The notes beneath the pieces are model-generated. The model was not told where the DNA came from. It was given only the letters and a program-made list of their open reading frames with translations, and ran no database searches. Shown here piece after piece: positions 9,946 through 30,991 of a stretch of DNA of 64,000 bases; position 1 is the stretch's first letter; each line of letters opens with the position of its first letter. The translations under genes were made by a program, and so were the position numbers. Origin of the DNA: Deltaproteobacteria bacterium (lineage in GTDB: Bacteria > Desulfobacterota > Binatia > UBA9968); the NCBI GenBank assembly GCA_016874755.1, contig VGTH01000003.1, positions 124,001 to 188,000 of the forward strand. Reading direction: 5' to 3'.

Positions 9946-10982
9946 GCAGCGATCCAGCCGGTGCGCGCCAAGATCGTGCGAATCTCGTCTTTACTTAAAC
10001 GGCGCGCCATGTCGGAGCTGTACTCGGCAAACTTGACGGCATCTGCCCGGTGATAAGATGATGTGGTTGCTTCGAGATCGATCTGCGGCAAGATGACGTA
10101 GCTGGTTTCGTCTTCGATGGTGCGCACCGCTTCGACCTCCGAAACCAGCACTTCGTGGATCTTTTCACCGGGACGGATGCCTACCACTTCGACGGGAATC
10201 TTTTTCTTAGCAGTCAACGCCTCAATCATCACCTCGGCCACGTCGGTCACCAACGCCGCGGGTATTTTGAGCACAAAGGTCTCGCCGCCCTTGCCGTGGG
10301 TTGCGGCGTAGAACACGAGCTCGATCGCTTCGGCCAGCGTCAGCACAAAGCGCGTCATCCTGGAGTCGGTGATGGTGACCGGCCCGCCGGCTTCGATCTG
10401 CCGTTTGAAAAGCGGGATCACCGAGCCGCGCGAACCGACAACGTTGCCGTAGCGGACGCAGGTGAAGATTGTCCGCTTGCCGCTGTTGTGGAAATTGGCC
10501 GCGGTAAAGAGCTTTTCCTGAATCGACTTGGTCATGCCCATGGCGTTGACCGGCTTGACCGCCTTATCGGTGCTGACGGCGACGACTTTTTCGAGGTTTT
10601 CTTCCAACGCGGCTTGAATGACATTTTGTGCGCCGATCACGTTGGTCTGCACCGCTTCCCAGACGTGATACTCACAGGACGGAACTTGCTTCAAAGCCGC
10701 GGCGTGAAAAACGATGTCGATGCCGCGCACCGCTTCGCGCACGCTGTTGTAGTTGCGCACATCGCCGATCACGAAATTGAGCGCATCCTTGCGCGGATAC
10801 TGATGGCCCATGCCGTATTCTTCGCTCATCCGCACTTGCTTATCTTCGTCGCGGCTAAAGATGCGAATTTCGCTGGGACCTTCTTCGAGCAACCGGTCGG
10901 CGATCTGATGACCGAACGAACCGGTGCCGCCGGTCACCAGGACGCGCTTTGCGGAAAAAAGTTTTGGTTTATTCTGTGCCAC
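9942..10982 (-). CDS. capE: UDP-N-acetylglucosamine 4,6-dehydratase, CapE/FlaA1 family
   Basis: A 346-residue SDR. VLVTGGTGSFGHQIADRLL at 14-32 binds NAD(P). VSTDKAVKPVNAMGMTKS has Met where ordinary SDRs have the catalytic Tyr, a feature of CapE/FlaA1-type inverting dehydratases. The reaction is loss of water from UDP-GlcNAc with inversion at C5, the first step to UDP-L-FucNAc and relatives. GTG start follows AAAGGC at good spacing. The reductase and cupin genes follow with a 4-base overlap and a 3-base gap. No WecB/CapG-type C2 epimerase is seen, so the final sugar could stay at the 6-deoxy-talose stage. Confidence 0.85.
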   Translation of the reverse strand: MAQNKPKLFSAKRVLVTGGTGSFGHQIADRLLEEGPSEIRIFSRDEDKQVRMSEEYGMGHQYPRKDALNFVIGDVRNYNSVREAVRGIDIVFHAAALKQVPSCEYHVWEAVQTNVIGAQNVIQAALEENLEKVVAVSTDKAVKPVNAMGMTKSIQEKLFTAANFHNSGKRTIFTCVRYGNVVGSRGSVIPLFKRQIEAGGPVTITDSRMTRFVLTLAEAIELVFYAATHGKGGETFVLKIPAALVTDVAEVMIEALTAKKKIPVEVVGIRPGEKIHEVLVSEVEAVRTIEDETSYVILPQIDLEATTSSYHRADAVKFAEYSSDMARRLSKDEIRTILARTGWIAA

Positions 10983-13847: not shown

Positions 13848-15005
13848 CTAGCGCGTGAAAAAATCAGCGATCGACTGAACAACGGCTCGCTGCATCGCTT
13901 CGGTCAATTCCGGATAAATCGGCAGCGCGATAGTCTGTTGAGCCGCTGCTTCACTCTCAGGAAAATCGCCCGGCTTGTGACCCAAATCTCGAAAACACTC
14001 CTGCAGGTGAAGCGGCACGGGATAGTAGATCTCACAGCCGATATTTGCCCTTTTGAGGTGGTCGATCAGCCCATCGCGCCTTCGCGTGCCGACGCGAATG
14101 ACAAATTGATTGTAGATGTGCCTCCCCCCTGCGGCTTCGTGCGGTAAGGCCACCGGCGCACCGCTACTCCCCGCGCCATTGTCCGTTGTCAGTTTTGCCG
14201 CGGTAAAGAGTTGTCTATAGGTTGCGGCATTGCGCTGCCGCGCCGCGGTCCAGCCGTCGAGATATTTCAACTTCACCCGCAAAACCGCCGCTTGAATAGC
14301 ATCGAGCCGAAAGTTGCCACCGATGTATTTGTGATAATATTTGGCCTTCGATCCGTGCCCTCGCAACATCGCGACTCGCTCGGCGAGCTCGGCATCGTTG
14401 GTCGTCACCATCCCGCCATCGCCGAACGCGCCGAGGTTCTTCGACGGAAAGAAGCTAAAGCAACCCAGATCACTGATCGAACCGGCACGTTTGCCGTTGT
14501 CCTCGGAACCGATCGCTTGCGCCGCATCTTCAATGACGCGGAGCCGATATCGACGTGCAAGGTCTACGATGAGGTCCATCTCCGCCATTTGTCCGTAAAG
14601 ATGCACCGGCATAATCGCTCGAGTCCGCCTGGTAATCGCCGACTCAATTTTCGTCGCATCGATATTATAAGTCAGTGGATCGATGTCGACGAAAACCGGC
14701 GTCGCGCCGACTCTGGAAATACAACCGACCGTAGCAAAAAACGTGTAGGGGGTCGTGACAACTTCATCACCGCTGCCGATGCCCAAGCTCATAAGTGCAA
14801 CCAACAAAGCATCCGTGCCAGAGGAGACCCCGATGCCAAATCGACAAGCAGAGTAGGCTGCAATCTCCCGTTCGAGCTGCTCCACTTCAGGGCCAAGAAT
14901 AAACTGCTGCGACTGCACGACCTTATCAATTGCAGCCCGAATCTCCGCTTCGATGGCACCGTATTGGGTGCGCAAATCTAGCAGCGGTACGGGTGTAGGA
15001 CTCAC
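13848..15005 (-). CDS. DegT/DnrJ/EryC1/StrS family sugar aminotransferase
   Basis: A 385-residue PLP enzyme. [16 protein letters not shown] carries the Schiff-base Lys (K189), [10 protein letters not shown] holds the cofactor-binding Asp (D160), and [13 protein letters not shown] the phosphate-binding loop. These enzymes transaminate keto-sugar nucleotides at C3 or C4. Candidate substrates here are the 4-keto sugar made by CapE, or a 3-keto UDP-GlcNAc if the Gfo/Idh protein in the lpx operon is GnnA-like. GTG start. The stop of the downstream methyltransferase-side neighbour is 21 bases away. Confidence 0.88.
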
Positions 15006-15688: not shown

Positions 15689-17113
15689 TCAGGCACTCGC
15701 CGCTAGCGAAACCTCAGGGTCCTTGATCGCAGCCGTCGCAACATTGACATCGAGCGCTCGCAACACTGCGCGCGCAGCGCGCTGGCCCGAGCTGCCGTCA
15801 AGTCGGAAACATAGTTCGGTGCGCAAGCGCGTCCTCCCTGCACGATCGATCGAGGGATCGTCGAGATAGGCATCGACGACTTGTCTAAGCTCTTCCGGCG
15901 AATACACCAAACGCAGACCCTGGGTATCGACAAGTTTTTTGTAGTGGCTGTTGAGAAAAATATCGTCGAAATAGCGGTTTTCCGCTCCTCGATCTCGGCC
16001 AAAAGCGATGGATATTACCGGCTTATCCAAAACCGCCGCATCGATGGCCATAGTCGATGCTATATTGACAATCACGTCGGAATGAAAAATGGTCGACGCT
16101 AGGTTAACCATGTCGGCCCACGAGGGATCCCAGCCATCGTGCAGCTTGGACAAACGGCCCGGTTCCTGAATCGTCAACCAAGGACGATTGGTAAAGTGTC
16201 GGTAATACTCCTCGCGCAGTCGTTGAGTTGTGATCGGATGCAAGCGCAATATCAGTTGGCACGACGACCCCAAATTACCGCCCTGCAAAGTTTGATAGAC
16301 GGTCTCAACAATGTCGGGCTCATTGGGAATAAACCCCTCGGTGGATGCGGCGTAGGTGATCAATTTCCGGTCGGGGCTAAGCTCGTGAGCGTGAAAAAAC
16401 TCCGCGCGAGGCAAAAAACTCTTGTTGTCGGTGTAGAGATCAAATTGCGGCACACCGACCACTTCTACCTTTTCGCGCGGAAAAAAGTGCAACTCGGCAG
16501 CTTCGTCGACCATGGTTTCATTCCACACCGCCATCGAATCTGGCACAACTGACAAGGGTCCTTTACAGATAAAATTGTCCCAGCTCTCGACCAAACAGAG
16601 GACCTTGACACCGCGCAGCCTGGCTTCTTTGACCATATGCATGTTGGTGCCAAAGACTCTCGTAAAAACCGCAAGGTCCGGTTTATACTTTTGGTAAAGC
16701 GGTGCCAACGCGGCTTGACTGCGATAGAGAGCCATTTCCCAGCGATTAATGCGCTGTTCATTGGCACGGAGCGTCCGCGCGAGCCTTCCTGCGGTATCGC
16801 GCCACGCCAATCCCCACTTGCCGCGCTGTGCCAACCTTCGTACCCGTATGGCTTGCGTAAGGCCTCGATTTACCCAAACGTAGTCTTTGAGGTTCTTTAA
16901 CCGCTTCTCAACAAAACCAACTTTTGTCCGCGGCCATTTTTCCACACAAACGTTAGGCGCTTCGAATTCCTTGCGAAACTCAGGCTCATCGCCGATCGGC
17001 GAGATGATCACGGTGCGCAGATTAGGATTCGCCGTCAGCGTCTTGAGAAAATCGGTGCGCAAGAGATTTCGGTTAGAAATCCCTTGCCGTAGAAATAAAA
17101 AAACTGTTTTCAC
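15689..17113 (-). CDS. GT-B-like surface glycan protein, CDP-glycerol glycerophosphotransferase-like
   Basis: A protein of about 474 residues whose two-domain pattern resembles the CDP-glycerol/polysialyltransferase-like GT-B group. The C-terminal half has LILRLHPITT, SDVIVNIASTMAIDAAVLD and KPVISIAFG, typical of the donor domain. VKVLCLVESWDNF lies in the middle. It is not a confident match to any named enzyme. It follows neuA by a short gap, so a transferase using the CMP-activated sugar is a reasonable inference. GTG 17113 is chosen; TTG 17119 would add two residues. Confidence 0.65.
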   Translation of the reverse strand: MKTVFLFLRQGISNRNLLRTDFLKTLTANPNLRTVIISPIGDEPEFRKEFEAPNVCVEKWPRTKVGFVEKRLKNLKDYVWVNRGLTQAIRVRRLAQRGKWGLAWRDTAGRLARTLRANEQRINRWEMALYRSQAALAPLYQKYKPDLAVFTRVFGTNMHMVKEARLRGVKVLCLVESWDNFICKGPLSVVPDSMAVWNETMVDEAAELHFFPREKVEVVGVPQFDLYTDNKSFLPRAEFFHAHELSPDRKLITYAASTEGFIPNEPDIVETVYQTLQGGNLGSSCQLILRLHPITTQRLREEYYRHFTNRPWLTIQEPGRLSKLHDGWDPSWADMVNLASTIFHSDVIVNIASTMAIDAAVLDKPVISIAFGRDRGAENRYFDDIFLNSHYKKLVDTQGLRLVYSPEELRQVVDAYLDDPSIDRAGRTRLRTELCFRLDGSSGQRAARAVLRALDVNVATAAIKDPEVSLAASA

Positions 17114-17125
17114 AGGCAACTTTTT

Positions 17126-17848
17126 CTAACGGGCTGCGCTTTGGCGTGCGATCAATGTCTCGGCCAGCAAGAAATCAATTTCGTTGTTGATGTCGACTGA
17201 TTCATATTCGTCATTTACTAACGGAATGATCTCGGTCCCCGTCGTCGAACGGAGCTGCCAGACGTTGCTAGCGCGAAACACGTCCATCGACGCGTTTTGA
17301 ATGTAAACGGTCGGCAGCAGCTGATACGACAAGGTATGCGCCTCCGGCAGCTTCTGCTCCACTGGGATCAGCGAGCGAATTCGGCTCTGGCTCTGGTTCA
17401 TCACCCACATTTTGTGCGGGTGCTCGGAGCAAAGCCGCACCGTGCGTACGCAGTGTGCCATTGGGTCTTCGCGCAACAGCTCGATAGCTTTGTCGATGGT
17501 AGCGCTCGTTCGAAATGGTGACGTCGGCCGCAACAGGCAGACGAAATCCGGCTCGTATTTTTCGTGATCTCTAAACCAGCCCAGCGCATGCTCCATCGCC
17601 TGCAGTTCGGTTGAATGGCCTTGAGCTATCTCGGCAGGCCGGCGAAACGGCACCTCCGCTCCCGCCCCAAGCGCAACATTGGCAATCGCATCGCTATCGG
17701 TAGATACCACGACCCGCTCGATGTAGCGGGAGCGCTTCGCCCCCTCGATGGAGTATGCCAAGAGTGGCTTGCCGGCCAGCGGCCGGATGTTTTTGTTCGG
17801 CACCCGCTGCGAGCCGCCGCGGGCGATGATGATCGCCAATACTTTCAT
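17126..17848 (-). CDS. CMP-nonulosonate cytidylyltransferase (NeuA family)
   Basis: A 240-residue nucleotidyltransferase. MKVLAIIIARGGSQRVPNKN is the CTP-binding signature of CMP-NeuAc/CMP-legionaminate synthetases. VVVSTDSDAIANVA and FVCLLRPTSPFRT follow as expected. The family activates nonulosonic acids with CTP. With the NeuB-type synthase at 23465-24523 it defines an acidic-sugar pathway. It is distinct from KdsB by its tail and spacing. ATG start, 9 bases after the transketolase stop. Confidence 0.85.
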   Translation of the reverse strand: MKVLAIIIARGGSQRVPNKNIRPLAGKPLLAYSIEGAKRSRYIERVVVSTDSDAIANVALGAGAEVPFRRPAEIAQGHSTELQAMEHALGWFRDHEKYEPDFVCLLRPTSPFRTSATIDKAIELLREDPMAHCVRTVRLCSEHPHKMWVMNQSQSRIRSLIPVEQKLPEAHTLSYQLLPTVYIQNASMDVFRASNVWQLRSTTGTEIIPLVNDEYESVDINNEIDFLLAETLIARQSAAR

Positions 17849-17857
17849 CAGAAACGG

Positions 17858-19828
17858 TCAGTCCGTCAATGCCGCGATGCTTCGCGCCAAGCTCGCGCCA
17901 TCCAGGCCATGATGGCGCAGCGCTTCTTGGGGCGTGCCGCACGCCAAAAGCCCCTCGACGGCGAATTTTTTATAGTTTCGTCCGGCAAGGAGTCCGGTCT
18001 CGTACAGCTCGTTGATCAGATAATCCCCAAGGCCGCCGATGGGCGCATGATCTTCGATCACGCAAATATTCCGACAGGGCGACAATTCTTGTTTCAACCA
18101 AACGCGGTCACAACGATTGAGCCACGGCATGTTGATGACTTTGATGCGCAGCCCCTGCTGCCGCAGAATCTCTTCCGCGCACAGCGCCTCGTGCAACATC
18201 ACCGGTCCGTAGGCGAGGATGGCTGCATCCGAGCCAATAGTCAATGCAACCCCGCGCCCGACAGCGAATTCGTATTCAGAGGGCAACTCAATCATCCGCG
18301 GCGACGGGCCGATAATCAGCCGCAGCATGTAAACGCCGGTGCCACCCTCGAGGCAATATTTCAGCGCAAGTCGCGCTTCCTTGGCGTTGCACGGCTGAAT
18401 GATCGTGCAGTTGGGCAGCGCGGCAAACAATGAAATATCCCGAACGGATTGATGGGACGACCCCGGCCCGGCTGGGATCAGACCGGCATAGTGGCAGACA
18501 TAAATTATCTTGGTTTGCTCGCAGGCATTGTTGTAAATCTGCTCGTTCGCCCGCGCCCCCATGAAGCTCGCAAAAGTATTCACTACGGGCAGCAGTCCCT
18601 GGGAAGCGAGCCCGCCTGCCATGGAGACCATGTCTTGCTCCGCGATACCATTTTCGATGAATCGCTTGGAAAACTTCTGCTCGAAGGCGCGCAGACGGCA
18701 GTCGGCGGTTAAGTCGCCCCCCAGCACGACGATATCCTTGCGGGTCTCTGCGAACTCAACCAAGGCTTGACCGTAGGCATCGGCGACGTACTCGCGCGAC
18801 ACACTGGCGGAGCTGCGCTCGGGATCGGGGAGATCTTCGAGTGCGATGGAACCCAAGTGCAATTCTTCAAAGCGCTCACAGATGCGCGTAAGTATTTCGG
18901 CAAACCCCGCTTGAAAAGACTCGTCATCGGGGGCTCCAGCGTGCCATCGATAGAGACCGCGATTGGCGGCCAGCGCTACGGGATGTTCCATGAAAGAAAC
19001 GCCGCGTCCTTTGATCGTGTCCGCAATCAGAATCTTCGGCTTGTCATTGATCGCTGCGAATTCGGCGAAGCGCGCTTCGAGCTGGGCAAAATCATGGCCG
19101 TCGCAGCGCGCCACATGCCAGCCGAAGGCGCGGAACTTGGCAGCCATATCTCCCAGATCGATAATTTCGGCGACCGGCTTATCCGATTGCAGCTTATTGT
19201 GATCGACGATCACGGTCAGGTTGGCGATCTTTTGATGCGCCGTAGTTTGCAGCGCTTCATAGATCTGCCCTTCCTGCAGCTCGCCATCCCCCGTCATGAC
19301 AAACACTCGGCCACCGCGCTTTTGCAGCGCTTTGGCTTTCGCCATGCCTTTGCCTTTGGAGATACCCATGCCGAGCGAGCCAGAGTTGGCTTCCATACCC
19401 GGCGTGCGCACATCGGGGTGGCCATAGGTGCCGCCAAAACGGCGCAGGTTGATGAATTTCTCCTGCGGCAAAAGGCCCAGCGAAAACATCACCGCGTAGA
19501 GACCGGGAACGTCATGACCTTTCGACGAGAAATAAATGTCTCGATCGGGGTGTTGAATGCCGAGCTTGGCAATATTCAATTCGCGATAATAGAGATCGGT
19601 AACTATGTCCAGCGAGCTAAAGCTCGAGCCCAAATGGCCCGACCCGGCGCGCTTCACGGTGGCGAGCGTATTGGCGCGGCACATGTCGGCAATAATCCCG
19701 AGCTTATCGTGCTGCGGCAGCGCCGCGGCGTGAACCCGGGCAAACTCAGCCGCCGGTATCAGTTGAATCTTAATCAATCGCTTTGCCGTTGATGGACAAT
19801 TATCGAGGTGCAGAGACAAGCGGCTCAA
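17858..19828 (-). CDS. transketolase-like thiamine diphosphate enzyme
   Basis: A 656-residue single-chain transketolase. The N-terminal half holds AGSGHLGSSFSSLD and the thiamine diphosphate motif from TGDGELQEG to VDHNK. The C-terminal half has RFIENGIAEQDMVSMAGGLA with the catalytic Glu, and AGPGSSHQSVRD. It transfers two-carbon ketol units between sugars. In a glycan cassette it may build or trim the aldose that NeuB condenses, rather than serve the pentose phosphate pathway; that is inference. The TTG start overlaps the TylF-type stop by 4 bases. An in-frame TTG at 19777 is an alternative start. Confidence 0.85.
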   Translation of the reverse strand: MSRLSLHLDNCPSTAKRLIKIQLIPAAEFARVHAAALPQHDKLGIIADMCRANTLATVKRAGSGHLGSSFSSLDIVTDLYYRELNIAKLGIQHPDRDIYFSSKGHDVPGLYAVMFSLGLLPQEKFINLRRFGGTYGHPDVRTPGMEANSGSLGMGISKGKGMAKAKALQKRGGRVFVMTGDGELQEGQIYEALQTTAHQKIANLTVIVDHNKLQSDKPVAEIIDLGDMAAKFRAFGWHVARCDGHDFAQLEARFAEFAAINDKPKILIADTIKGRGVSFMEHPVALAANRGLYRWHAGAPDDESFQAGFAEILTRICERFEELHLGSIALEDLPDPERSSASVSREYVADAYGQALVEFAETRKDIVVLGGDLTADCRLRAFEQKFSKRFIENGIAEQDMVSMAGGLASQGLLPVVNTFASFMGARANEQIYNNACEQTKIIYVCHYAGLIPAGPGSSHQSVRDISLFAALPNCTIIQPCNAKEARLALKYCLEGGTGVYMLRLIIGPSPRMIELPSEYEFAVGRGVALTIGSDAAILAYGPVMLHEALCAEEILRQQGLRIKVINMPWLNRCDRVWLKQELSPCRNICVIEDHAPIGGLGDYLINELYETGLLAGRNYKKFAVEGLLACGTPQEALRHHGLDGASLARSIAALTD

Positions 19829-20637
19829 CCCACGCGAATCAGTAGGCTTTGCCCGGTCTCCAAATGAAACTTGAGGTAGTTCGTGCGACTCGCGACAAAT
19901 TCATCGACCGCCTGCTTACTCCCCTCACAAGTGGTAAAACCGTAATCGTCCGCCACCATCACACCGCCGACCAGCAACCGTTCTGAGAAAAACTCCAGGC
20001 AGGCGCGGGTCGGCGCATAGATGTCGACGTCCACATGAACGAAGCAAAACTTTTCCTGCGCGAGCTCGGCGCAGCGATCTTCAAAACGCCCCTTCTGCAC
20101 CATCACGTTGGGGAATACCGACAGGTATCTTTTCACTTCTTCGAAGGATGTATCGCCGAACTTTCCCGGCCAGTGGCTGTCGTCCTGCTTGGCGATGTCG
20201 TCGGGATGCCCCTCAAAAGTGTCGATCGAATGGATTCTTAAGGGTCGACCAAACAACTGCTGCGCCGTGGCGGCGATGAAGTAGCTGCCGCCGCCGCGAT
20301 AGACGCCGATTTCTGCAATGCTGACGTCGGCGTTAGCCAGATGGCGGACATTGCACAGCGCTTGATACAAGACATAGAGGCGATCGTAGTACAGAAGCGA
20401 TCGCCTATCGGCGATCACCCTGTCGGCGAGTTCTTTGAATCCGCCGATTTCTTGGATGCGACTTTTTTCCCAGTAGCCCGCGCCGTAGGTTTGCGGGCAG
20501 TAGTGAAAATCGTCGCGGTAGCGATAGACCGCCAACCCTAGCTTGGGGCCAAGTTTTTTGAAAAGCGGCTTGGCGCGCAGTTTTCTGCGCTCTCTGCGCC
20601 GTTGTTTATTCTGATACTTTTCGGTCAATTCACTCAT
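19825..20637 (-). CDS. TylF/MycF family methyltransferase
   Basis: A 270-residue SAM-dependent O-methyltransferase. SIAEIGVYRGGGSYFIAATA is motif I, RIHSIDTFEGHPDD matches the TylF/MycF loop, and FCFVHVDVDIYAPTRACLEF carries the metal-binding Asp residues. GGVMVADDYG follows. MycF and TylF methylate deoxysugar hydroxyls in macrolides; homologues in glycan loci methylate surface sugars. A lysine- and arginine-rich N-terminus (about 40 residues) precedes the fold. ATG start, 6 bases after the aldehyde dehydrogenase stop region and coupled to the transketolase. Confidence 0.87.
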   Translation of the reverse strand: MSELTEKYQNKQRRRERRKLRAKPLFKKLGPKLGLAVYRYRDDFHYCPQTYGAGYWEKSRIQEIGGFKELADRVIADRRSLLYYDRLYVLYQALCNVRHLANADVSIAEIGVYRGGGSYFIAATAQQLFGRPLRIHSIDTFEGHPDDIAKQDDSHWPGKFGDTSFEEVKRYLSVFPNVMVQKGRFEDRCAELAQEKFCFVHVDVDIYAPTRACLEFFSERLLVGGVMVADDYGFTTCEGSKQAVDEFVASRTNYLKFHLETGQSLLIRVG

Positions 20638-20642
20638 GAAAA

Positions 20643-22109
20643 CTACAGGCCGCCAGGATTGACGTTCATATAAACATCTTTGAGCGTAGAATACACATCC
20701 AACGCCTCGGTGCCGGGCTCGCGTGAGCCGTTCCCCGACTGTTTCACACCGCCGAAGGGCATATGGGCCTCGCTGCCATAGGTTCCGGCATTGACGACCG
20801 CCACACCGGCCAGCACTTTCTGCGTAAACTCGACGGCACGGTCAAGGTTGCGCGTGTGGATACACGCCGTCAAGCCGTACGGCGAATCGTTGGCGAGCGC
20901 CAACGCGGAGGCAAAATCTTTGACGCGGTACAGACAAGCGATCGGTCCGAACAATTCACGCGTCGACAGCTCATCTTCAGCCGTGACGGCTTCGAGCAGC
21001 GTCGGCGCCACATAAAAACCTTTCTTGTGCGACGCATCCACGAGCCGTTCGCCGCCAATCAGGACTCTGGCACCGCGCCGCTGGGCGTCGGCGACGGCGC
21101 ACAGCATATTTTTCAACTGCTTCTCGTTGATCACCGGACCCAAGTCGTCTTCGTCGGCGGTGCCAACCTTGAGCTGCCGCGTTCGCTCGATCAGCAAATC
21201 ACGAAATTTTTCATAGATGGACCGGAAAATGATGATGCGGCTGGCCGCCGCGCAGCGCTGCCCCGAGTTGCTGAAAGCTGAAAGCAGCACCCATTTTGCG
21301 GCATTGTCCAAGTCGGCGTCATCGCAGACCACTAGAGGATTCTTACCGCCGAGCTCGAGGGACACTTTGGTCAAGCGTTCGCCGGTCACCGCGCCGATTC
21401 TTTTCCCCACCGTCGTTGACCCGGTGAAGCTGATCACATCGATATCCGGATGCGCCGCCAGGGGCGCACCGGCCTCCTCGCCGTAGCCGTGAATCACGTT
21501 TAGCACTCCATCGGCAAGCCCAGCGGAGCCCGCGATCCGAGCGAATAGCCACGCCGTCATCGGCGTATCTTCAGCCGCCTTTAGGACCGCGGCATTGCCG
21601 CAAATCAAAGCCGGAAACACTTTCCAAGCGACGTTGGCGATCGGCGTATTTGCCGCAACGATCAATCCGGCGACCCCCAACGGTTGGCGCACTGTCAGCG
21701 CGTAGCGATTAGGCGTGCCGCTGGTGGTCGTGCGGCCATACAGTCTCTGGCCCTCGCCCGCGTAAAATAAACCTAACTCGATCGCGCCATCGGTTTCCCC
21801 TAGCGCCGCAGCCTTGGACTTGCCGGTCTCCAGGGCGACTATCGCGGCGATCTCTTCGCGCTGCTGGCGCATCGCCAGCGCGACCGCGTGCAGCAGCATG
21901 CCGCGGCGCACAGCGGGCATGGCCGCCCATTGGGGCTGCGCCCGCCGCGCCGCCACCACCGCCAACTCAACGTCCGTGGCGCGCGAACGGGCCACCTGGC
22001 ACAGTCGCTCGCCGGTCGCTGGATTGAGCTTGTCGAACCACTTATCGGCTACCGCAGGGCGATCCGTCCCACCGATGAGGTTGGGAATGCGAGTTGGCGT
22101 CGAGCTCAC
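20643..22109 (-). CDS. NAD(P)-dependent aldehyde dehydrogenase
   Basis: A 488-residue ALDH superfamily enzyme. SLELGGKNPLVV holds the general-base Glu (E252) and SNSGQRCAAASR the nucleophile Cys (C286). DVISFTGSTTVGKRI is the cofactor loop and PFGGVKQSGNGSREPG the C-terminal signature. It oxidises an aldehyde to an acid. The substrate is unknown; its place among NeuB, NeuA and transketolase suggests a sugar aldehyde. GTG 22109 is 4 bases after the SDR stop. TTG 22145 would add 12 residues overlapping the SDR gene and has no better ribosome-binding site. Confidence 0.9.
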   Translation of the reverse strand: MSSTPTRIPNLIGGTDRPAVADKWFDKLNPATGERLCQVARSRATDVELAVVAARRAQPQWAAMPAVRRGMLLHAVALAMRQQREEIAAIVALETGKSKAAALGETDGAIELGLFYAGEGQRLYGRTTTSGTPNRYALTVRQPLGVAGLIVAANTPIANVAWKVFPALICGNAAVLKAAEDTPMTAWLFARIAGSAGLADGVLNVIHGYGEEAGAPLAAHPDIDVISFTGSTTVGKRIGAVTGERLTKVSLELGGKNPLVVCDDADLDNAAKWVLLSAFSNSGQRCAAASRIIIFRSIYEKFRDLLIERTRQLKVGTADEDDLGPVINEKQLKNMLCAVADAQRRGARVLIGGERLVDASHKKGFYVAPTLLEAVTAEDELSTRELFGPIACLYRVKDFASALALANDSPYGLTACIHTRNLDRAVEFTQKVLAGVAVVNAGTYGSEAHMPFGGVKQSGNGSREPGTEALDVYSTLKDVYMNVNPGGL

Positions 22110-22113
22110 GGCT

Positions 22114-22938
22114 TCACCACGCGGTCCAGCCGCCGTCAATGACAAGGTTAGAGCCGGTCATGTAGGCTGAAGCTTCGGAGAGCAAAAACACGATGGCGCC
22201 GTTGTACTCGTCGGCTCGCGCCATCCGGCCCATCGGCACGCGCTGGCAATAGCCCTCAAGAAATTTCTCGTCCTGATGATTGAAAACACCGCCGAGGGTT
22301 AACATGTTCACTCGCACTTTCTGCGCCGCCCAATAGGTTGCGAGGTAGCGCGTGAGATTGACCAAACCCGACTTCGACGCGGAATAGGCTACCGGCTTGA
22401 AAAACGGCGCGCCGCTCCTCCGGCGATATTGGTAGATTCTTTGATCGGGCGACACCACGCCGTAGATCGAGCCGATGTTGATGATCGAGCCGCCGGCGGA
22501 CTGGGCCATCTGTCCGCCGATTACCTGGCAGCAGAGAAAGACTCCTTTTAAATTGACGTCGAGCACCTGGTCCCAGGATGCTTCGGGGTATTCCTCGAAA
22601 GGACCGTTCTCCGCTGCGGGCGCGTTGGGCGGCGAATCCAGCGCCGCCGCGTTGATCAAACCAAAGGGCACGCCCCATTTCGCGTTCACCTGGGATAAGC
22701 CATCCTCGAGCGACCTGCGCGACGCAACATCAACCGCCACAGTCATGAGCTGGTCGAGGGAGGCCTCGCCACAGAGCCGCGCCGCAATGTCGGCGGCCGG
22801 TGCCTGATCGAAGATCGCCACCCGCGCACCGCGCCCGATCAGCGCGGCGCAAAACTGCTGCCCTAGCTGGCCTAAACCTCCGGTTACAATGACCGTCTTA
22901 TGCTGCACATCGAAAACATCCTCAGCCAAAGATGCCAT
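22114..22938 (-). CDS. SDR family oxidoreductase
   Basis: A 274-residue classical SDR. TVIVTGGLGQLGQQF binds NAD(P), GLINAAAL is the NAG-like motif, IINIGSIYG supplies Ser and PVAYSASKSGLVNL the YxxxK pair. NLVIDGGWTAW ends the protein as usual. Its closest described context is PtmA-type SDRs of legionaminic acid loci, which also sit beside NeuB and NeuA homologues; that link is by context. A 45-residue helical insert between the catalytic residues is slightly long. It is 6 bases after the phosphatase gene start region in the same operon. Confidence 0.87.
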   Translation of the reverse strand: MASLAEDVFDVQHKTVIVTGGLGQLGQQFCAALIGRGARVAIFDQAPAADIAARLCGEASLDQLMTVAVDVASRRSLEDGLSQVNAKWGVPFGLINAAALDSPPNAPAAENGPFEEYPEASWDQVLDVNLKGVFLCCQVIGGQMAQSAGGSIINIGSIYGVVSPDQRIYQYRRRSGAPFFKPVAYSASKSGLVNLTRYLATYWAAQKVRVNMLTLGGVFNHQDEKFLEGYCQRVPMGRMARADEYNGAIVFLLSEASAYMTGSNLVIDGGWTAW

Positions 22939-22944
22939 TGTCGA

Positions 22945-23457
22945 CTAACTCGATGACGCCGAAAACACCCGTTCGAACAGATCGCAAACTTCGCGCACGG
23001 CGCCCTGGCCGCCGTGAGCTTCTGTGCGATACAGCCCCAGCTCAACAACGTCAGGGTGCGCATCCTGCACGACGACTGGAAAACCAACGTTTTGCAGGCA
23101 TGTCCGGTCATTCAAGTCGTTGCCGACGAAGGCCACTTGCTGCAGCGACAGGCCGCGCTCTTGGGCGGCCCGTTCAAGCTCAGCGCGCTTGTCGGCGCAG
23201 CCCTGCACACAAGGAATGCCCAACTTCTTGCTTCTGACGCCGACGATGGGATTGACTTCCGTCGAGATGATCATGGTCGCAATGCCGAGCCGTTTGAGCT
23301 TTTCCAAGCCGATGCCATCGCCGCGGTAGCAACAGACCGCCTCCGCGCCATCGGCGAAAACATAAACCTTATTGTCGGTGAACACTCCGTCGAAGTCGAA
23401 GGCGATCAAACGGATCGCGCGGATGCGTTCTTGTAGGCTCGGGCTGGGCGATTTCAA
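22945..23457 (-). CDS. KdsC-like HAD phosphatase
   Basis: A 170-residue C0-type HAD phosphatase. RLIAFDFDGVFTDN holds the nucleophile and acid/base Asp pair (D21, D23), MIISTEVNP is motif II and VAFVGNDLNDRTC is motif IV. KdsC removes phosphate from Kdo-8-P, and close relatives dephosphorylate KDN-9-P and NeuAc-9-P. Next to a NeuB-type synthase it probably acts on a nonulosonate phosphate. The start is TTG 23457, 7 bases after the NeuB stop with AGAGGA upstream; the length then matches the family. An ATG at 23568 would overlap NeuB by 104 bases and is unlikely. Confidence 0.87.
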   Translation of the reverse strand: MKSPSPSLQERIRAIRLIAFDFDGVFTDNKVYVFADGAEAVCCYRGDGIGLEKLKRLGIATMIISTEVNPIVGVRSKKLGIPCVQGCADKRAELERAAQERGLSLQQVAFVGNDLNDRTCLQNVGFPVVVQDAHPDVVELGLYRTEAHGGQGAVREVCDLFERVFSASSS

Positions 23458-23464
23458 GTGTCCT

Positions 23465-24523
23465 CTAGGCGTCGCGCAGATCGTCGAGGAGGATATTTTC
23501 GTCCGCTTCGAGACTGCGCCGCGTGTGCCGCCCCAGGACCCGATCGATTTGGTTGGGCGGCAAGCCATCGTTGGGCGATTTCAGGGCGATGTCTTCCAGA
23601 GTGATTTTGTGGCCGGCAGGTAAATTTCGCGCCGCAACAATTTTTTTGGCCATTTTCACCAGCGGCCTTTCTTCCGACGGATAGGTGCGCTTAACCCCGT
23701 CACCCATCGCCACCGCAGCCCGCTGTAGATCGCGCACCAGTCGGCGCATGCCGCCGGGTTCCAAGGAAAACGCATGATCGGCGCCCTTCCAAGCGCGATT
23801 CAACGTGAAATGTTTCTCGATCACCCGCGCGCCCAACGTGTAGGCGACCATCGCCAACGCGATGCCGTTTTGGTGATCCGAAAGCCCCACGACAATGTCT
23901 GGAAACCGTTCACGAAAGGTCGTGATTACCTTCAGATTCATCTGCTCGGGATCCACCGGGTAGCTGGCCGTGCATTGCAGCAAGCAGAGATTCTGATTCA
24001 GCGCCATGATCGTATCGTAGGCGCGTTGCACGTCATCCAGGGTTCCGCCACCGGTGCTGACAATCATCGGTTTGCCAATGCGCGCGACATGCTTTAACAG
24101 TGACAAATTTCTCAGATCGCCGGAGGCGATCTTATAAGCCGGCATCTCCAGCTCGGCGAGAAAGTCTGCGCTGCGAAAATCGAAAGCGGTGGCAAACATC
24201 GTAATGCCCAACTCGCGGGCGTAGCGTTTGAGCTCGACGTATTCGTTACGGCCAAACTCCAAAGCTTCGCGATGGGCGCCGTAGGTCGGACCGAAACTAT
24301 TCTCATTCTCGTAGGGCGACTCGTACATGGTGCGCGTATAGAGCGTGCGATTGTCGCGCTTTTGCAGCTTGACGGCGTTGACGCCGCATTCCTTCGCGGC
24401 GCGAAAGAACTCTTTGGCTTTGCCAAGATCGCCCTGATGGTTGTGGCCGATTTCGGCAATCACATAGCAGTCAGCTCCGTCGCGCGCGACCATATCGTTA
24501 TCAATGTTCAAAAAAGCACTCAC
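23465..24523 (-). CDS. N-acetylneuraminate synthase family protein (NeuB-like)
   Basis: A 352-residue PEP-condensing synthase. YVIAEIGHNHQGDLGKAKEF at 20-39 is the NeuB signature, with AVKLQKRDN, YKIASGDL and VVGLSDHQ following. The C-terminal 60 residues (ARNLPAGHKITLEDIALKSP) form the SAF antifreeze-like domain, which completes the active site in NeuB dimers. It condenses PEP with an aldose or aldose phosphate into a 3-deoxy-2-ulosonic acid. Whether the product is KDN, NeuAc, legionaminate or something new cannot be read from the sequence. GTG start follows GGAG at ideal spacing. Confidence 0.9.
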   Translation of the reverse strand: MSAFLNIDNDMVARDGADCYVIAEIGHNHQGDLGKAKEFFRAAKECGVNAVKLQKRDNRTLYTRTMYESPYENENSFGPTYGAHREALEFGRNEYVELKRYARELGITMFATAFDFRSADFLAELEMPAYKIASGDLRNLSLLKHVARIGKPMIVSTGGGTLDDVQRAYDTIMALNQNLCLLQCTASYPVDPEQMNLKVITTFRERFPDIVVGLSDHQNGIALAMVAYTLGARVIEKHFTLNRAWKGADHAFSLEPGGMRRLVRDLQRAAVAMGDGVKRTYPSEERPLVKMAKKIVAARNLPAGHKITLEDIALKSPNDGLPPNQIDRVLGRHTRRSLEADENILLDDLRDA

Positions 24524-26182: not shown

Positions 26183-27031
26183 TCAAATCGCGACCTTTTG
26201 CAAATCCAAGGCGCGGCTAGCTTGCTCGATTTGGCGCGCCCAGAGTTTTCGTTGCTGCGCATCGCTGCTGATGCTTCCCAGATAGGATCTTAGAAAGCGC
26301 ATGCGCTGGCTCCTGCTAAGGTATTTGCCCAGCGTTCGATTGATCTGCACGAGATTTTTGATGCGCCGGCGGCGGTTCAATGCGCTGAAACGGCGCACGC
26401 CCTCGAGATCGAGAACAAAAAAACCGAACGCCCCGCCCGGGCCTTGCGGCACCGCAAGGATGTTAAAGTCCTTGAGATCATTGTGGTAGATATTTTTTTC
26501 ATGCAGCCGGGCAAACAGTTGGCTGAGACCCCTGAGAAAGTCACGCCGTCGGTGCACTCCTGCGGCGCCACCGAGAGCCGCAAGGTCCTCCAGCCAGATA
26601 CGATTCACAATCTTGCTGCCGGCGACTTCTTCAGTGAGGTAGAAACTCCGGCTTAAGAACCGGCCTTGGCGATGTTCGATAGCAGCGATCGGGCGTGCCG
26701 TGGCCACACCCGTATCGGCTAGGATGACGGCACCTCGGAGCGACCGGATCGCCCCCGAAGCGAAAAAAATCGAAACCAGCCTATGGCGCCAGGAGAAAGC
26801 GTCATAGCGTTTGATGTAAACCCGCACTTGCCGGTCGGCCGCTCCCAGCAACACACAACCCACCTTGATCTTCGATTGGTCCTTGATGATTTCACAGTCT
26901 GGCAGTTCTAGCAGCCGATCGGGGTCGGAGATCAGGTCGATGAACGCTTCGCTGGCAAAACTGGGGTCGACCCAAATCGCCGAGCGGCCGCGCCGACGAA
27001 AGACAAAATCAGCAAATCGCTGCGCCGCCAC
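26183..27031 (-). CDS. lipopolysaccharide kinase, InaA/WaaP-like (1 of 3)
   Basis: A 282-residue small protein kinase-like enzyme. YHNDLKDFNILAV is the catalytic loop (H-x-D-L-x3-N), and the metal-binding site reads FFVLDLEGV, where DFD or DFG is usual. YIKRYDAFSWRHR is a likely ATP-binding Lys region. WaaP and KdkA phosphorylate heptose or Kdo of the core. The GTG start directly abuts the previous TGA (TGAGTG). Its divergent metal motif leaves some doubt about activity. It is one of three such kinases in 6 kb. Confidence 0.8.
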   Translation of the reverse strand: MAAQRFADFVFRRRGRSAIWVDPSFASEAFIDLISDPDRLLELPDCEIIKDQSKIKVGCVLLGAADRQVRVYIKRYDAFSWRHRLVSIFFASGAIRSLRGAVILADTGVATARPIAAIEHRQGRFLSRSFYLTEEVAGSKIVNRIWLEDLAALGGAAGVHRRRDFLRGLSQLFARLHEKNIYHNDLKDFNILAVPQGPGGAFGFFVLDLEGVRRFSALNRRRRIKNLVQINRTLGKYLSRSQRMRFLRSYLGSISSDAQQRKLWARQIEQASRALDLQKVAI

Positions 27032-28193: not shown

Positions 28194-29087
28194 CTATTCA
28201 CCGGATAGACGGCGGCGATTGAAACGATCGAGGGCTTGGTCGAGCGCGAGCACCTCGCGGCCGAGCAAGCCGGCAAGTTTTTCGGTGCGCAGTCCGCCCC
28301 GCAACGGTCGGACGGCCTTCTGCTTCATGCTCGCCGTCGTCACCGGCGTAACGCGGCTGACATCGCCGCCCAGCGACTGCACCAACGCCCGGGTAAAATC
28401 GGTGCGCGGCAGTAGATCTTTGCCGACCACGTTGACGATGCCGCTGGCGCGCTTGCCGGCCAGCTCGATGCTGCATTCGGCGAGATAGTCAGCGAGAGTC
28501 GGATTGCCGATTTGATCGAAGGGAATCGTCAGCTCCTGACCCGTCTGCACCCGCTCATAAACCTGCATGGCGAAGTTTTTTTTCTTGGACAGCGGGTCCC
28601 AACCGTAAACCACCGTGGTGCGCAAAATCAGCACATCCGGCAAGATCTCGCGCAAGACAGTCTCTGCATCGAGCTTGCTTTTGCCGTAAACGCTCAGCGG
28701 TGAGGTTGGCGCCTGCTCATCGTAGGGCCCGTTCTGGCCATCGAAAACATACTCGGTCGAGTAAAAAACCAACTTTACGCCGAGGCGGGCGGCTTCCTGC
28801 GCCACCCGCCGCGGCCCCTCGACATTTTGTCTATAGGTTTCTTCAGGGTGCTCTTCGCAATAGTCGACGTGGGTCAGTGCCGCGCAAAGATAGATCGTGT
28901 CCGGCACGCACTCGCCAAAAAAGCGCTGCACCTGGGTGGCGTCGCTAATATCGAGCGGTTCTAAACCTGCGCGCGGTTGAGTGACGTGGGTGCCGACGAC
29001 CGGGCGGTTCGCGGCCTTCAGACGGCGCATCAACTCCTGGCCGACGAGCCCGGAGGCACCGATGACTAACTGCGTATTTTCAGGCAC
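28194..29087 (-). CDS. NAD(P)-dependent sugar-nucleotide reductase, RmlD-like
   Basis: A 297-residue extended SDR. LVIGASGLVGQELMRRL is the dinucleotide site, FYSTEYVFDGQNGPYDEQ and SVYGKSKLDAETV the catalytic block with YxxxK. It is a distant paralogue of the reductase at 9040-9945. No rmlA, B or C is nearby, so the product is unknown. GTG start overlaps the upstream kinase stop by 8 bases, and a 28-base gap separates it from the WaaG-like gene. Confidence 0.82.
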   Translation of the reverse strand: MPENTQLVIGASGLVGQELMRRLKAANRPVVGTHVTQPRAGLEPLDISDATQVQRFFGECVPDTIYLCAALTHVDYCEEHPEETYRQNVEGPRRVAQEAARLGVKLVFYSTEYVFDGQNGPYDEQAPTSPLSVYGKSKLDAETVLREILPDVLILRTTVVYGWDPLSKKKNFAMQVYERVQTGQELTIPFDQIGNPTLADYLAECSIELAGKRASGIVNVVGKDLLPRTDFTRALVQSLGGDVSRVTPVTTASMKQKAVRPLRGGLRTEKLAGLLGREVLALDQALDRFNRRRLSGE

Positions 29088-29952
29088 GCTTCACTTCCTG
29101 GTCCAGGGAATTTTTCCACCGCATCAAGCTGCGAAAACTCTCGTCCATCACCCGATCGCATTCCCAACGCCGTTGGCGAGTCTTCTCTTCCAACCAACGC
29201 GCCAAAGCGGCGCCCTGCTTCGACGACAACTCGGTGTCGAGATAGGCGCGCAAAAATCGCATCCGGTCCTGCAACGAGATTCCCGGCAGCGGCATGCGAT
29301 TCAACTGCACGAGGTTTCGTTTCCATTGCGACTGCGGCAGCGATTGCGGATAACGCCGCGTGCGGTCATTGTCCATGAAATAGAATTGCCAGCGCCGATC
29401 CTCCGCCGGACCGATGAATACATTGGTCGCCACTAAGTCGCCGTGGACAAAGCCAAGATCGTGAAACCGCCGGATTTCCCTTGCCAGCTGCTCGAGCCCC
29501 GTCCATTTGTCCGCCCGGCTCACGGTAGGCTTCGAGCGGCGAAGGTTTTGTTGCAGTGTCTGTATCAGCGACACTCCAGCTACTGGCACGGTCACCAGGA
29601 AGGCGCACTCGAGCAGGCGTCGGGTTCGTCTCTCCCCCGCCGCTATCGCCAGGGGAACGTTAAAGCCCGCCGCTGCCAACTCCACGCCCACCCGCTGGGC
29701 GCGGCGCGCCTTCGACAGACGAAAGCGATCCTTCAACATTCCGCCGGTGGTGCTAGGGTAAAATGTTTTCAGATAAAAGCTCTGTGCCGCTCCGCCGGTT
29801 TCCAGCAACTCTGTTTGCGGGTGCTTCGCGGCTGTTTGTTGCGCGATTCGCTCTCGCACCGCATCCCACAGCGGTCCGCTCCAATATTCTGAGCAAACCC
29901 ACAGAGTCCAAGGACCGTCGCGCAGCGTGCTGTAACTATTGCCAATGACCAT
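29080..29952 (-). CDS. lipopolysaccharide kinase, InaA/KdkA-like (2 of 3)
   Basis: A 290-residue kinase-like protein. SFYLKTFYPSTT carries the likely ATP Lys, GFVHGDLVATNVFI is the catalytic loop, and FYFMDNDRTR the metal-binding site (DND). KRNLVQLNRMPLPG and RMRFLRAYLD are typical of WaaP/KdkA enzymes that phosphorylate core heptose or Kdo. ATG 29952 overlaps the heptosyltransferase end by 17 bases; no strong ribosome-binding site is seen, so coupling is likely. Substrate is unknown. Confidence 0.82.
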   Translation of the reverse strand: MVIGNSYSTLRDGPWTLWVCSEYWSGPLWDAVRERIAQQTAAKHPQTELLETGGAAQSFYLKTFYPSTTGGMLKDRFRLSKARRAQRVGVELAAAGFNVPLAIAAGERRTRRLLECAFLVTVPVAGVSLIQTLQQNLRRSKPTVSRADKWTGLEQLAREIRRFHDLGFVHGDLVATNVFIGPAEDRRWQFYFMDNDRTRRYPQSLPQSQWKRNLVQLNRMPLPGISLQDRMRFLRAYLDTELSSKQGAALARWLEEKTRQRRWECDRVMDESFRSLMRWKNSLDQEVKRA

Positions 29953-30991
29953 GGGCAGCTTTTTGCCCCACCGACCGGCGCAACACAGCGGCCACTTTGT
30001 TTACGATCGCGTCGCTGCTTATCGAGCGCATGCATATTTTGCCGATGGTGCAATTTTTTCGATAGCACGGCGCGCAATCGGCCTTGCCTTGAATCACCAA
30101 CTCGCCAAAGCCGTAGGGCCCGGTGCGCTTTGGATCGGTGGCGCCCCACAACGAAATCACCGGCGTGCCAACCGCCGCCGCCAGATGCATCAGCCCCGTA
30201 TCCGGACCGATACAGACAGAAGCGTGTTGAATGACGCCCACCGCTTCGCGCAATGAAGTTTGGCCGACCAGATTCACAACCCTACCCTCGGCGGCGCGGA
30301 CAACTTGTTCGGCGACCGCCGCTTCACTGCCGCCGCCGAGCAAAACCACCGATAGCCCATGGTGCCGCAGCAACGCGTTGGCGCAGCCGGCGATCTGTTC
30401 AGCAAACCAATCTTTGCTCGGCCAGCGCGAACCGACGAACAACGCCGCGAAGGTGGTGTCGACACCGCTCAGGTGGCGGCGCACAGCGAGCTTGTCTTGC
30501 GGCGTCAATTCGATCTGCCACTCAATCGGCCGCGGCGCGATGCCTAGCCATTCGGCAAACTTCATGTAGTGATCGATCTTGGCCACCGAGTCGCCCACCG
30601 CGTCGATGTGATAGTTGTTAAAAAAGCCGTTGCCCTCCTTGGCGTCCGAGGGATGAAAACCCAAGCGGCACGGCGCTCCCGAAGCACGGCTCACCACGCC
30701 GCTTTTGAAATGACGCTGGAGGTCCAGCACGAGATCGAAACGGCGGGCGTGAATCTGTCGAAGAAACGGCCAGAGGGCCGCGATCGGACGGTGGCGATCA
30801 TAGATGATCACCTCATCGATGGCGGCAAAATTCTCCAAGAGCGGAAAACAGGCGGGCTCCACGGACCAGGCAAGAAAGGCGCGCGGGAAACGACGCCGGA
30901 CGAGCTGCGCCAGCGGCAAGGCGCGCGTGATGTCGCCCAAAGAGCCATGCAAAACGAAAAGAATCTTTTTCGGCTCAACCGGCAGCGCCAT
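29936..30991 (-). CDS. glycosyltransferase family 9 (heptosyltransferase)
   Basis: A 351-residue GT-B heptosyltransferase. KKILFVLHGSLGDITRALPL is the N-terminal signature with the catalytic Asp, FAALFVGSRWPSKDWF lies in the linker, and CIGPDTGLMHLAAAVGTPVI is the ADP-heptose site. A Cys-rich tail segment (CAPCYRKNC) resembles the C..C pattern of WaaC/WaaF/WaaQ relatives. It transfers heptose to the Kdo-lipid A core. Whether it is heptosyltransferase I or III cannot be told. Overlaps of 17 bases join it to kinases on both sides. Confidence 0.88.
   Translation of the reverse strand: MALPVEPKKILFVLHGSLGDITRALPLAQLVRRRFPRAFLAWSVEPACFPLLENFAAIDEVIIYDRHRPIAALWPFLRQIHARRFDLVLDLQRHFKSGVVSRASGAPCRLGFHPSDAKEGNGFFNNYHIDAVGDSVAKIDHYMKFAEWLGIAPRPIEWQIELTPQDKLAVRRHLSGVDTTFAALFVGSRWPSKDWFAEQIAGCANALLRHHGLSVVLLGGGSEAAVAEQVVRAAEGRVVNLVGQTSLREAVGVIQHASVCIGPDTGLMHLAAAVGTPVISLWGATDPKRTGPYGFGELVIQGKADCAPCYRKNCTIGKICMRSISSDAIVNKVAAVLRRSVGQKAAHGHWQ

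Follow-up and report, generated by a model that had tools for sequence, protein, structure and literature searches.

A conserved NeuB/NeuA gene cassette with a divergent transketolase and an aldehyde dehydrogenase as a candidate route to a tailored CMP-activated ulosonic acid

The 64,000-nucleotide stretch analyzed here (positions 124,001 to 188,000 of contig VGTH01000003.1, assembly GCA_016874755.1, from a Deltaproteobacteria bacterium), hereafter the window, contains at 17126-24523 a cassette of seven tightly packed minus-strand open reading frames (ORFs). They encode, in order, NeuB, a KdsC-like phosphatase, a short-chain dehydrogenase (SDR), an aldehyde dehydrogenase (ALDH), a TylF-type methyltransferase, a transketolase (TKT), and NeuA. 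The cassette was tentatively read as an operon for a cytidine monophosphate (CMP)-activated ulosonic acid of the sialic-acid superfamily, with a tailoring branch that uses the TKT on the side chain. It is very probable that the TKT and ALDH are integral to the ulosonate pathway. A more specific proposal, possible but doubtful at present, is that a repurposed TKT shortens a completed sugar of the sialic-acid type by two carbons, and that the exposed aldehyde is capped as an acid by ALDH or as an amine by an aminotransferase. The module would then be a widespread undescribed class of pathway whose products are amino-heptulosonic and 3-deoxy-heptulosaric acids in CMP-activated form, and the heptulosaric (Dha-like) class would have a genetic route for the first time. 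The seven ORFs were as follows.

23465..24523, minus strand: NeuB-type ulosonate synthase with a C-terminal SAF domain ('long' type); PF03102 268 bits, PF08666 47 bits
22945..23568, minus strand: KdsC-like HAD sugar-acid phosphatase; KdsC-type HAD models 99-107 bits, PF08282 26 bits; DFDGVFTDN motif; true start probably the TTG at 23457
22114..22938, minus strand: PtmA-like SDR; PF13561 139 bits; motifs GSIYG and YSASK
20643..22145, minus strand: ALDH; PF00171 503 bits; motifs ELGGK and GQRC; the start may be the GTG at 22109
19825..20637, minus strand: TylF-type O-methyltransferase; PF05711 57 bits
17858..19828, minus strand: transketolase paralogue; PF00456, PF02779, and PF02780 (N, pyr, and C domains)
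17126..17848, minus strand: NeuA/PseF-type CMP-sugar synthetase; PF02348 (CTP_transf_3) 91 bits

The gene set, order, and strand had been proposed by an earlier model annotation of the DNA (the sequence-only reading) and were confirmed, as all ORFs were present and Pfam and NCBIfam models backed each assignment. With the longest-ORF starts, the spacings between the seven ORFs were -104, +6, -32, +5, -4, and +9. The first overlap was removed by a KdsC start at an internal TTG (codon 37) and the -32 overlap by the ALDH GTG (codon 12); with these starts taken, the earlier statement that no overlap or gap exceeds 22 bases was consistent with the ORFs.

The gene set was conserved around related TKTs. 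A scan of a species-genome collection gave 169 TKT relatives, and the best 80 were fetched and mapped. In 46 of these loci, the TKT was flanked by 5.5 kb or more of sequence on each side. Neighbours were counted within 8 kb of the TKT at identity cut-offs of at least 50% for NeuB and at least 38% for ALDH. The loci were picked by TKT similarity and include related species that are not independent, and the counts hang on the identity cut-offs. In the 46 well-flanked loci, NeuB was found in 36 (31 long and five short), a CMP-transferase in 37, SDR in 28, KdsC in 20, ALDH in 29, a class III aminotransferase in four, TylF in two, and no marker in eight. ALDH and the aminotransferase were never found together, and one or the other accompanied 33 of the 46 TKTs. 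The numbers for all 80 loci, many of which are on short contigs, were 44 for NeuB (38 long and six short), 53 for CMP-transferase, 39 for SDR, 25 for KdsC, 44 for ALDH, five for aminotransferase, none for ALDH with aminotransferase, four for TylF, and 24 for no marker. Conservation of the TKT and ALDH beside NeuB had been chosen beforehand as a point on which the sequence-only reading could fail, and the NeuB and ALDH counts in the well-flanked loci upheld it. As conserved partners of NeuB, the two enzymes argue against a cassette for plain 2-keto-3-deoxynononic acid (KDN) or N-acetylneuraminic acid (NeuAc) with bystander genes.

The arrangement NeuB-(KdsC)-SDR-ALDH-NeuA-TKT was mapped in Desulfobacterota, Chloroflexota, Methylomirabilota, Gemmatimonadota, Planctomycetota, gammaproteobacteria, and methanogenic archaea, and the same set was present in Omnitrophota, with NeuB cut off by a contig end. 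By record titles and gene maps, the module range also takes in Ignavibacteria/Bacteroidota and Actinobacteria. The recurrence of this set in different phyla rules out a chance cluster. Among 117 relatives, the window's own genome included, the TKT search matched 25 genomes: the own genome, three close relatives (69-79%; G009, G010, and G024), and 21 with ordinary enzymes (32-36%). The TKT adjoined ALDH in all three close relatives, with NeuA and a glycosyltransferase added in locus L005 and TylF in L006. Two of the mapped loci are not independent of the close relatives, as L023 is contig G009:C51 and L025 is contig G024:C9. In a sample of 297 genomes of the window's phylum, its own genome among them, the TKT (E<=1e-130) was found in five, the SDR (E<=1e-45) in 14, and the ALDH (E<=1e-150) in four. 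The SDR lay within about 2.3 kb of the TKT in all five TKT genomes, two of which (G199 and G405) had a more divergent ALDH (43-44%) at the equivalent position. The fourth ALDH genome, G277, had a 3.3-kb contig with NeuB-SDR-ALDH that ended inside ALDH.

The residues of the TKT were compared in 79 cassette enzymes (the window and 78 relatives), since gene calling lost the TKT in two of the 80 loci (L028 and L088). Numbering follows E. coli TktA; the catalytic residues were placed by a MAFFT alignment with TktA, and the phosphate positions by aligning 12 short-type TKTs of the ordinary kind found in relatives. Of the residues for thiamine binding and proton relay, H26, H66, H100, E160, E411, and H473 were kept in the window's enzyme and in all 78 aligned relatives, and the H261 equivalent was found as a WH-G motif in 79 of 79. 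In the E. coli enzyme, R358, S385, H461, and R520 bind phosphate, and D469 contacts a donor hydroxyl. In the cassette TKTs, the aligned R358 was deleted, S385 was changed to Asp, R520 to Ile, and D469 by the replacement of GEDG with PAGPG; H461 aligned to Tyr and was not included in the motif counts. The counts in 79 cassette versus 12 ordinary TKTs were 79 and 0 for PAGPG, 79 and 0 for DC replacing NS, 78 and 0 for R-I-PSP (missed in L064), 0 and 12 for ATR-AYG, 0 and 12 for R-x-SRP/TRP, and 1 and 12 for GEDG, the single cassette TKT with GEDG also having PAGPG. The R358, S385, R520, and D469 motifs were kept in all 12 ordinary enzymes. The altered phosphate-binding positions suggest that the cassette TKT probably acts on an unphosphorylated substrate, which would probably place its step after the phosphatase.

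The remodelled substrate channel might also serve to lengthen or branch the sugar, the TKT adding a C2 ketol unit to an SDR-made aldehyde or ketone to give a C11 or hydroxyacetyl-branched ulosonic acid, with ALDH acting later. Thiamine enzymes that make branched sugars (YerE-type) reportedly exist. However, ordinary transketolases are established to need aldehyde acceptors, and the alternation of ALDH with the aminotransferase would be less well explained, which makes this possibility quite improbable.

In a tree of 94 sequences, the 79 cassette TKTs were apart from TktA, the 12 ordinary enzymes, and two split TKTs, with a stem of 1.04 substitutions per site and a node support of only 0.59. 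A PF00456 search of 12 genomes found a full canonical TKT in eight, including the window's own (433-503 bits), and a split-type TKT in two (about 195 bits); the other two were archaea without other TKT. The housekeeping TKT of the window's genome is located at G000:C11. The cassette TKT was rejected as the ordinary transketolase of the genome, because this separate 433-bit copy exists. These results bear on the alternative that the cassette makes a plain KDN or NeuAc-type sugar while the TKT and ALDH only feed or clean up metabolism. It is established that NeuB, KdsC, and NeuA would suffice for KDN. However, the linkage is conserved in distant phyla, the TKT is a dedicated subfamily with a changed active site, and the same genome has its housekeeping copy; a plain sugar is therefore highly improbable.

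The gene set, its conservation, the special TKT, and the alternation of ALDH with the aminotransferase were observed directly, and on this basis we propose a route whose chemical steps, order, chain length, and stereochemistry stay conditional. NeuB would condense phosphoenolpyruvate (PEP) with an aldose phosphate, and KdsC would take off the terminal phosphate, freeing the end CH2OH. The SDR would oxidize the penultimate hydroxyl (C8 of a C9 sugar) to give a terminal ketol, HOCH2-CO-, which is the structure that transketolases cleave. The phosphate-independent TKT would lift off C8-C9 as a ketol unit and leave an aldehyde at C7, and ALDH would oxidize this aldehyde to a carboxylate, giving a dicarboxylic sugar of the 3-deoxy-heptulosaric type. 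With KDN as the starting point, the product would be a C7 heptulosaric acid. A sister version of the route has the class III aminotransferase, related to glutamate-1-semialdehyde aminomutase, which would make a terminal amine in place of the carboxylate. TylF may O-methylate the sugar in the window's lineage, NeuA would make the CMP-sugar, and the adjacent glycosyltransferase would add the sugar to the lipopolysaccharide (LPS) core. The order NeuB-KdsC-SDR-TKT-ALDH/aminotransferase was preferred because it is the simplest chain that gives each gene a use. In addition, the aldehyde made by the TKT could be a common substrate of ALDH and the aminotransferase, which would explain why the two alternate.

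Extra genes were found in some loci. An enolase-superfamily (MR/MLE) protein resembling sugar-acid dehydratases, together with a reductase, was present in five of the 80 loci (L023:11951-14040, L031:16441-18601, L027:11962-14046, L130:10438-13216 for L091, and L102). The reductase was ApbA (2-dehydropantoate 2-reductase, ketopantoate-reductase family) in four of them and a different one in L027. The dehydratase-like gene was found in none of 23 further loci searched, and no copy was found in the window. The L023 protein was nearest to galactonate, gluconate, and mannonate dehydratases, under all cut-offs (best 170 versus 311), and the other four proteins share 52-59% identity with it. Dehydratases of this kind work beside a carboxylate with an alpha-hydroxyl. 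The additions fit an acid product that would be kept and processed after ALDH. The second carboxylate suggested by the sequence-only reading is favoured by these five loci and by the alternation of the aminotransferase with ALDH, and its chemistry stays conditional.

The same additions could be accommodated if the SDR, TKT, ALDH, dehydratase with reductase, and TylF made a separate polyhydroxy-acid acyl substituent for the ulosonic acid, as may occur on the flagellins of Shewanella and Treponema denticola. The T. denticola flagellin reportedly carries a 2-methoxy-trihydroxyhexanoyl group. In Shewanella sfmABCDE, genes for an ATP-grasp protein and a methyltransferase accompany those for a NeuB-like protein, a PtmA-like SDR, and a thiamine enzyme (PMC3765264), and the Shewanella flagellin bears a methylated moiety of 236-264 Da on a nonulosonate. 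However, when the main ORFs of the window at 7709-8632 and 9040-40270 were scanned with Pfam, none matched an acyl-ligase, ATP-grasp, or N-acyltransferase family, the cassette has no amino-group gene inside, and the Shewanella thiamine enzyme is IlvB-like and not a transketolase. An acyl substituent was considered rather unlikely.

The SDR was also found apart from the cassette TKT. Nine of the 297 phylum genomes had a related SDR without this TKT, and NeuB lay within about 6.4 kb of it in nine of nine. Its partners, recognized by tblastn with a handful of queries, were a Gfo/Idh-type oxidoreductase in G374, G262, and G336 (and beside the second SDR of G198), an aminotransferase in G219 (44%) and G422 (33%), a split TKT with an aminotransferase in G153 and G190, and ALDH in G277; none was recognized in G429. 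We read the SDR as making a ketone that the partner reduces (to an epimer), aminates, or cleaves, and the Gfo/Idh or aminotransferase partners where the TKT is absent fit this reading. In the accessible text of PMC4481668, PtmA and PtmF of the legionaminate pathway are such an SDR/oxidoreductase pair. The genomes G153 and G190, of one genus, had the order SpsF - split TKT N - split TKT C - aminotransferase - SDR - short NeuB (split TKT at L121:3389-5151 and L122:4166-5928). The split TKT is of a different subfamily (36% and 28%) in the same position, and in the alignment it had no equivalents of Asp469, Arg520, and His461. A second transketolase-type enzyme in an equivalent position argues that the chemistry is needed.

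The cassette proteins were also compared with family models. NeuB was over the PF03102 gathering cut-off (268.4 versus 22.1 bits), and under the cut-offs of the N-acetylneuraminate synthase model NeuB_NnaB TIGR03569 (294.8 versus 399.65 bits) and of PseI TIGR03586 (248 versus 340.25 bits). The phosphatase was slightly under the KdsC model TIGR01670 (99.3 versus 106.95 bits) and under the KDN-9-phosphate phosphatase model NF058599 (81.5 versus 180 bits). The SDR, a looser relative, was under the PtmA flagellin-modification model NF050062 (109.9 versus 350 bits), the TKT under bacterial transketolase TIGR00232 (158.5 versus 682 bits), and NeuA under the CMP-pseudaminate synthetase PseF TIGR03584 (138.4 versus 205.7 bits). 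All cassette enzymes passed some Pfam family (HAD for the phosphatase), and none reached the cut-off of any NCBIfam model shown (the best 25 models for the SDR and for ALDH; none for TylF). Thus, the product cannot be read from family assignments by themselves.

That NeuB was under the cut-offs of both nonulosonate synthase models shown is also in keeping with an unusual substrate. The SDR and TKT might act before NeuB and, through transfer of a C2 unit, supply it with an unusual aldose (unphosphorylated or acidic) to condense with PEP, while ALDH acts elsewhere. It is established that transketolases make aldoses from ketoses. Moreover, the SDR relative PtmA works in the half of the legionaminate pathway that precedes NeuB (PMC4481668, in the part available). 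However, KdsC beside NeuB suggests a phosphorylated aldose, yet the phosphate-binding positions of the TKT are altered, and the alternation of ALDH with the aminotransferase is left unexplained. We regard this order of events as unlikely. The sequence-only suggestion of a TKT that prepares an unusual aldose is accordingly the weaker one, as the altered positions point to a step after the phosphatase.

Some TKT loci had their markers elsewhere. The genomes whose fetched TKT locus shows no SDR carried one outside the stretch in 15 of 15 cases in one set and in 14 of 17 in another, the misses being G132, G437, and G440. The 15 were ten Chloroflexi (NeuB-ALDH-NeuA-TKT, with the SDR not in the fetched stretch) and five Ignavibacteria (TKT alone). 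Ten of the SDR places were fetched: the SDR and a CMP-transferase were present in 10 of 10, and NeuB and KdsC also in nine, L111 being cut by a contig end. The five Ignavibacteria had SpsF-aminotransferase-SDR, followed in the four other than L111 by KdsC and a short NeuB, and five Chloroflexi had SDR, NeuA, KdsC, and short NeuB grouped in a second cluster. The solitary Ignavibacteria TKTs were rejected as unrelated housekeeping genes, because five of five genomes have a canonical TKT and the SpsF-aminotransferase-SDR cluster elsewhere. They account for five of the eight no-marker loci; L045 and L076 had the SDR elsewhere in the genome, and in the eighth (L091, genome G134), NeuB-KdsC-SDR-ALDH-ApbA-NeuA-dehydratase was located 7.7 kb from the TKT on the same contig and strand. 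G134 was one of three fetched from the set of 14. In the other two, G135 and G136, NeuB-KdsC-SDR was near a contig end and the TKT (L102 and L083) near the start of another contig, a separation that looks like broken assemblies.

Several points weigh against the proposed excision of C8-C9 after NeuB. The model names neither the ketol donor nor the C2 acceptor. The H461 change is alignment-dependent, and the cassette TKTs have a His one residue earlier. The split TKT apparently has no His26 and His261 equivalents in the alignment, and may therefore do different chemistry. Loci L024, L043, L058, and L084 have NeuB, SDR, CMP-transferase, and TKT with no ALDH of at least 38% near, and their genomes had no ALDH at E<=1e-100. 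L051 (short NeuB), examined at the locus only, had neither ALDH nor aminotransferase nearby; the aminotransferase was looked for near the TKT in these five loci, not genome-wide. KdsC was patchy, being near only 20 of the 46 TKTs. The ten Chloroflexi loci have no SDR and KdsC beside NeuB-ALDH-NeuA-TKT, and in the five of the ten looked at, the two genes sit in the second cluster, which has a separate short NeuB and NeuA. Finally, PMC4481668 assigns PtmA to the GDP-GlcNAc part of the legionaminate pathway, ahead of NeuB, so that the SDR could act upstream of NeuB; this speaks for the alternative with the TKT before NeuB.

The O-methylation that the sequence-only reading had added as a further step did not hold as a core step. 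TylF was rejected in this role because it was within 8 kb in only four of the 80 loci and, besides these, in one same-family relative, with an 86% homologue at the equivalent position in L006. The methyltransferase is best described as a lineage-specific addition.

The cassette lies in an LPS locus. The next gene on the same strand, which starts 6 bases past NeuA, was the following.

15689..17119, minus strand: glycosyltransferase nearest the BFO_1060 family; NF046086 68 bits versus a cut-off of 200

A protein similar to it was near 19 of the 80 TKT loci at a loose cut-off (20% identity), and this glycosyltransferase is probably part of the operon and the transferase of the CMP-sugar. Upstream, the LPS locus had LpxB, an MsbA-like ABC transporter, WaaA, LpxK, two GT9 heptosyltransferases, and other glycosyltransferases. 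Three separate WaaP/Kdo-kinase-like proteins were present in the same LPS-core locus (26183-27031, 29080-29952, and 30975-31745). Downstream, in the same locus, there were a PseB/FnlA-like dehydratase (9942-10982; 349 bits versus a cut-off of 408) and a DegT aminotransferase (13848-15005), which was under the PseC model (252 versus 424) and under LegC-family cut-offs too. PseH and PseG had no match among the scanned window genes. The own genome also has a second ulosonate locus (L106:9828-12092, G000:C8), with a NeuB fragment, an intact SDR of 41% identity, and a fusion of a KdsC-type phosphatase with a SIS domain; the truncated NeuB adjoins an apparent carbamoyltransferase fragment, judged by eye.

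Other neighbours were seen beside related cassettes. In L052 (3669-5104), an acyl carrier protein and a serine palmitoyltransferase (NF047599 632 bits, cut-off 500) were directly upstream of the NeuB cassette. A homologous pair occurred in L035, L041, L057, and L064, making five of the 80 loci in all, of which only the L052 pair was scanned with models. These are possible sphingolipid genes, and a bacterial ganglioside-like lipid is conceivable. In addition, a 285-amino-acid protein was downstream of the cassette in six of the 80 loci (L041:15250-16104 and relatives), and the L041 protein had no NCBIfam match at E<=1e-8.

Ulosonate biosynthesis is a known kind of pathway, and searches of open-licence PMC papers for a transketolase with nonulosonate or sialic-acid genes gave no description of this gene set; a search on NeuB specificity likewise gave nothing. 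The transketolase mention in PMC12342839 was unrelated to nonulosonates, and the available portions of PMC7371886, PMC5109656, PMC3438082, and PMC7526173 do not mention transketolase. Ulosonic acids cap many bacterial surface glycans. To our knowledge, pathways described so far mostly introduce sugar variation ahead of NeuB; the conserved module described here appears to vary the sugar after NeuB, with a TKT that lost canonical phosphate recognition. If this is true, the module would provide new chemistry in sugar biosynthesis (C2 excision), a genetic handle on heptulosaric acids, and a natural phosphate-independent transketolase for biocatalysis.

Compared with the legionaminic acid pathway of Campylobacter and Plesiomonas (PtmA, PtmF, PtmE, LegB/C/H/G/I/F), the cassette has the NeuB-type synthase, the CMP-transferase, and a PtmA-like SDR in common. 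It is without the guanosine diphosphate (GDP)-sugar, dehydratase/aminotransferase, and acetyltransferase steps and adds the TKT and ALDH. In agreement with the sequence-only reading, no classic legionaminate aminotransferase or dehydratase was found in 17126-24523: LegB dehydratase, LegC aminotransferase, LegH, and LegG were absent, and ORF, NCBIfam, and Pfam scans gave no LegB/LegC/PseB-type gene there. The animal or KDN-type 9-phosphate route likewise has NeuB beside a HAD (KdsC-type) phosphatase and a CMP-transferase; in contrast, the cassette is without a kinase or epimerase, the SDR, ALDH, and TKT are extra, and the phosphatase is under the KDN-9-phosphate model cut-off. The heptulosaric (Dha-like) acids would be of the same class as the proposed product, and we know of no biosynthetic genes for this class. 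For the plant heptulosaric acid, a 2024 paper states, in its available part, that the activated form remains to be identified (PMC11288761). The canonical transketolases (E. coli TktA and human TKT) have the same domain order and the same thiamine and proton-relay residues as the cassette TKT, which differs from them at the R358, S385, H461, R520, and D469 positions. The nearest precedent, as far as the accessible text of PMC3765264 goes, is the Shewanella oneidensis sfmABCDE operon. It differs in its IlvB-type thiamine enzyme and ATP-grasp protein, in having no ALDH or CMP-transferase among its five genes, and in serving flagellin and not LPS, and it shares with the cassette a NeuB-like protein, a thiamine enzyme, a PtmA-like SDR, and a methyltransferase.

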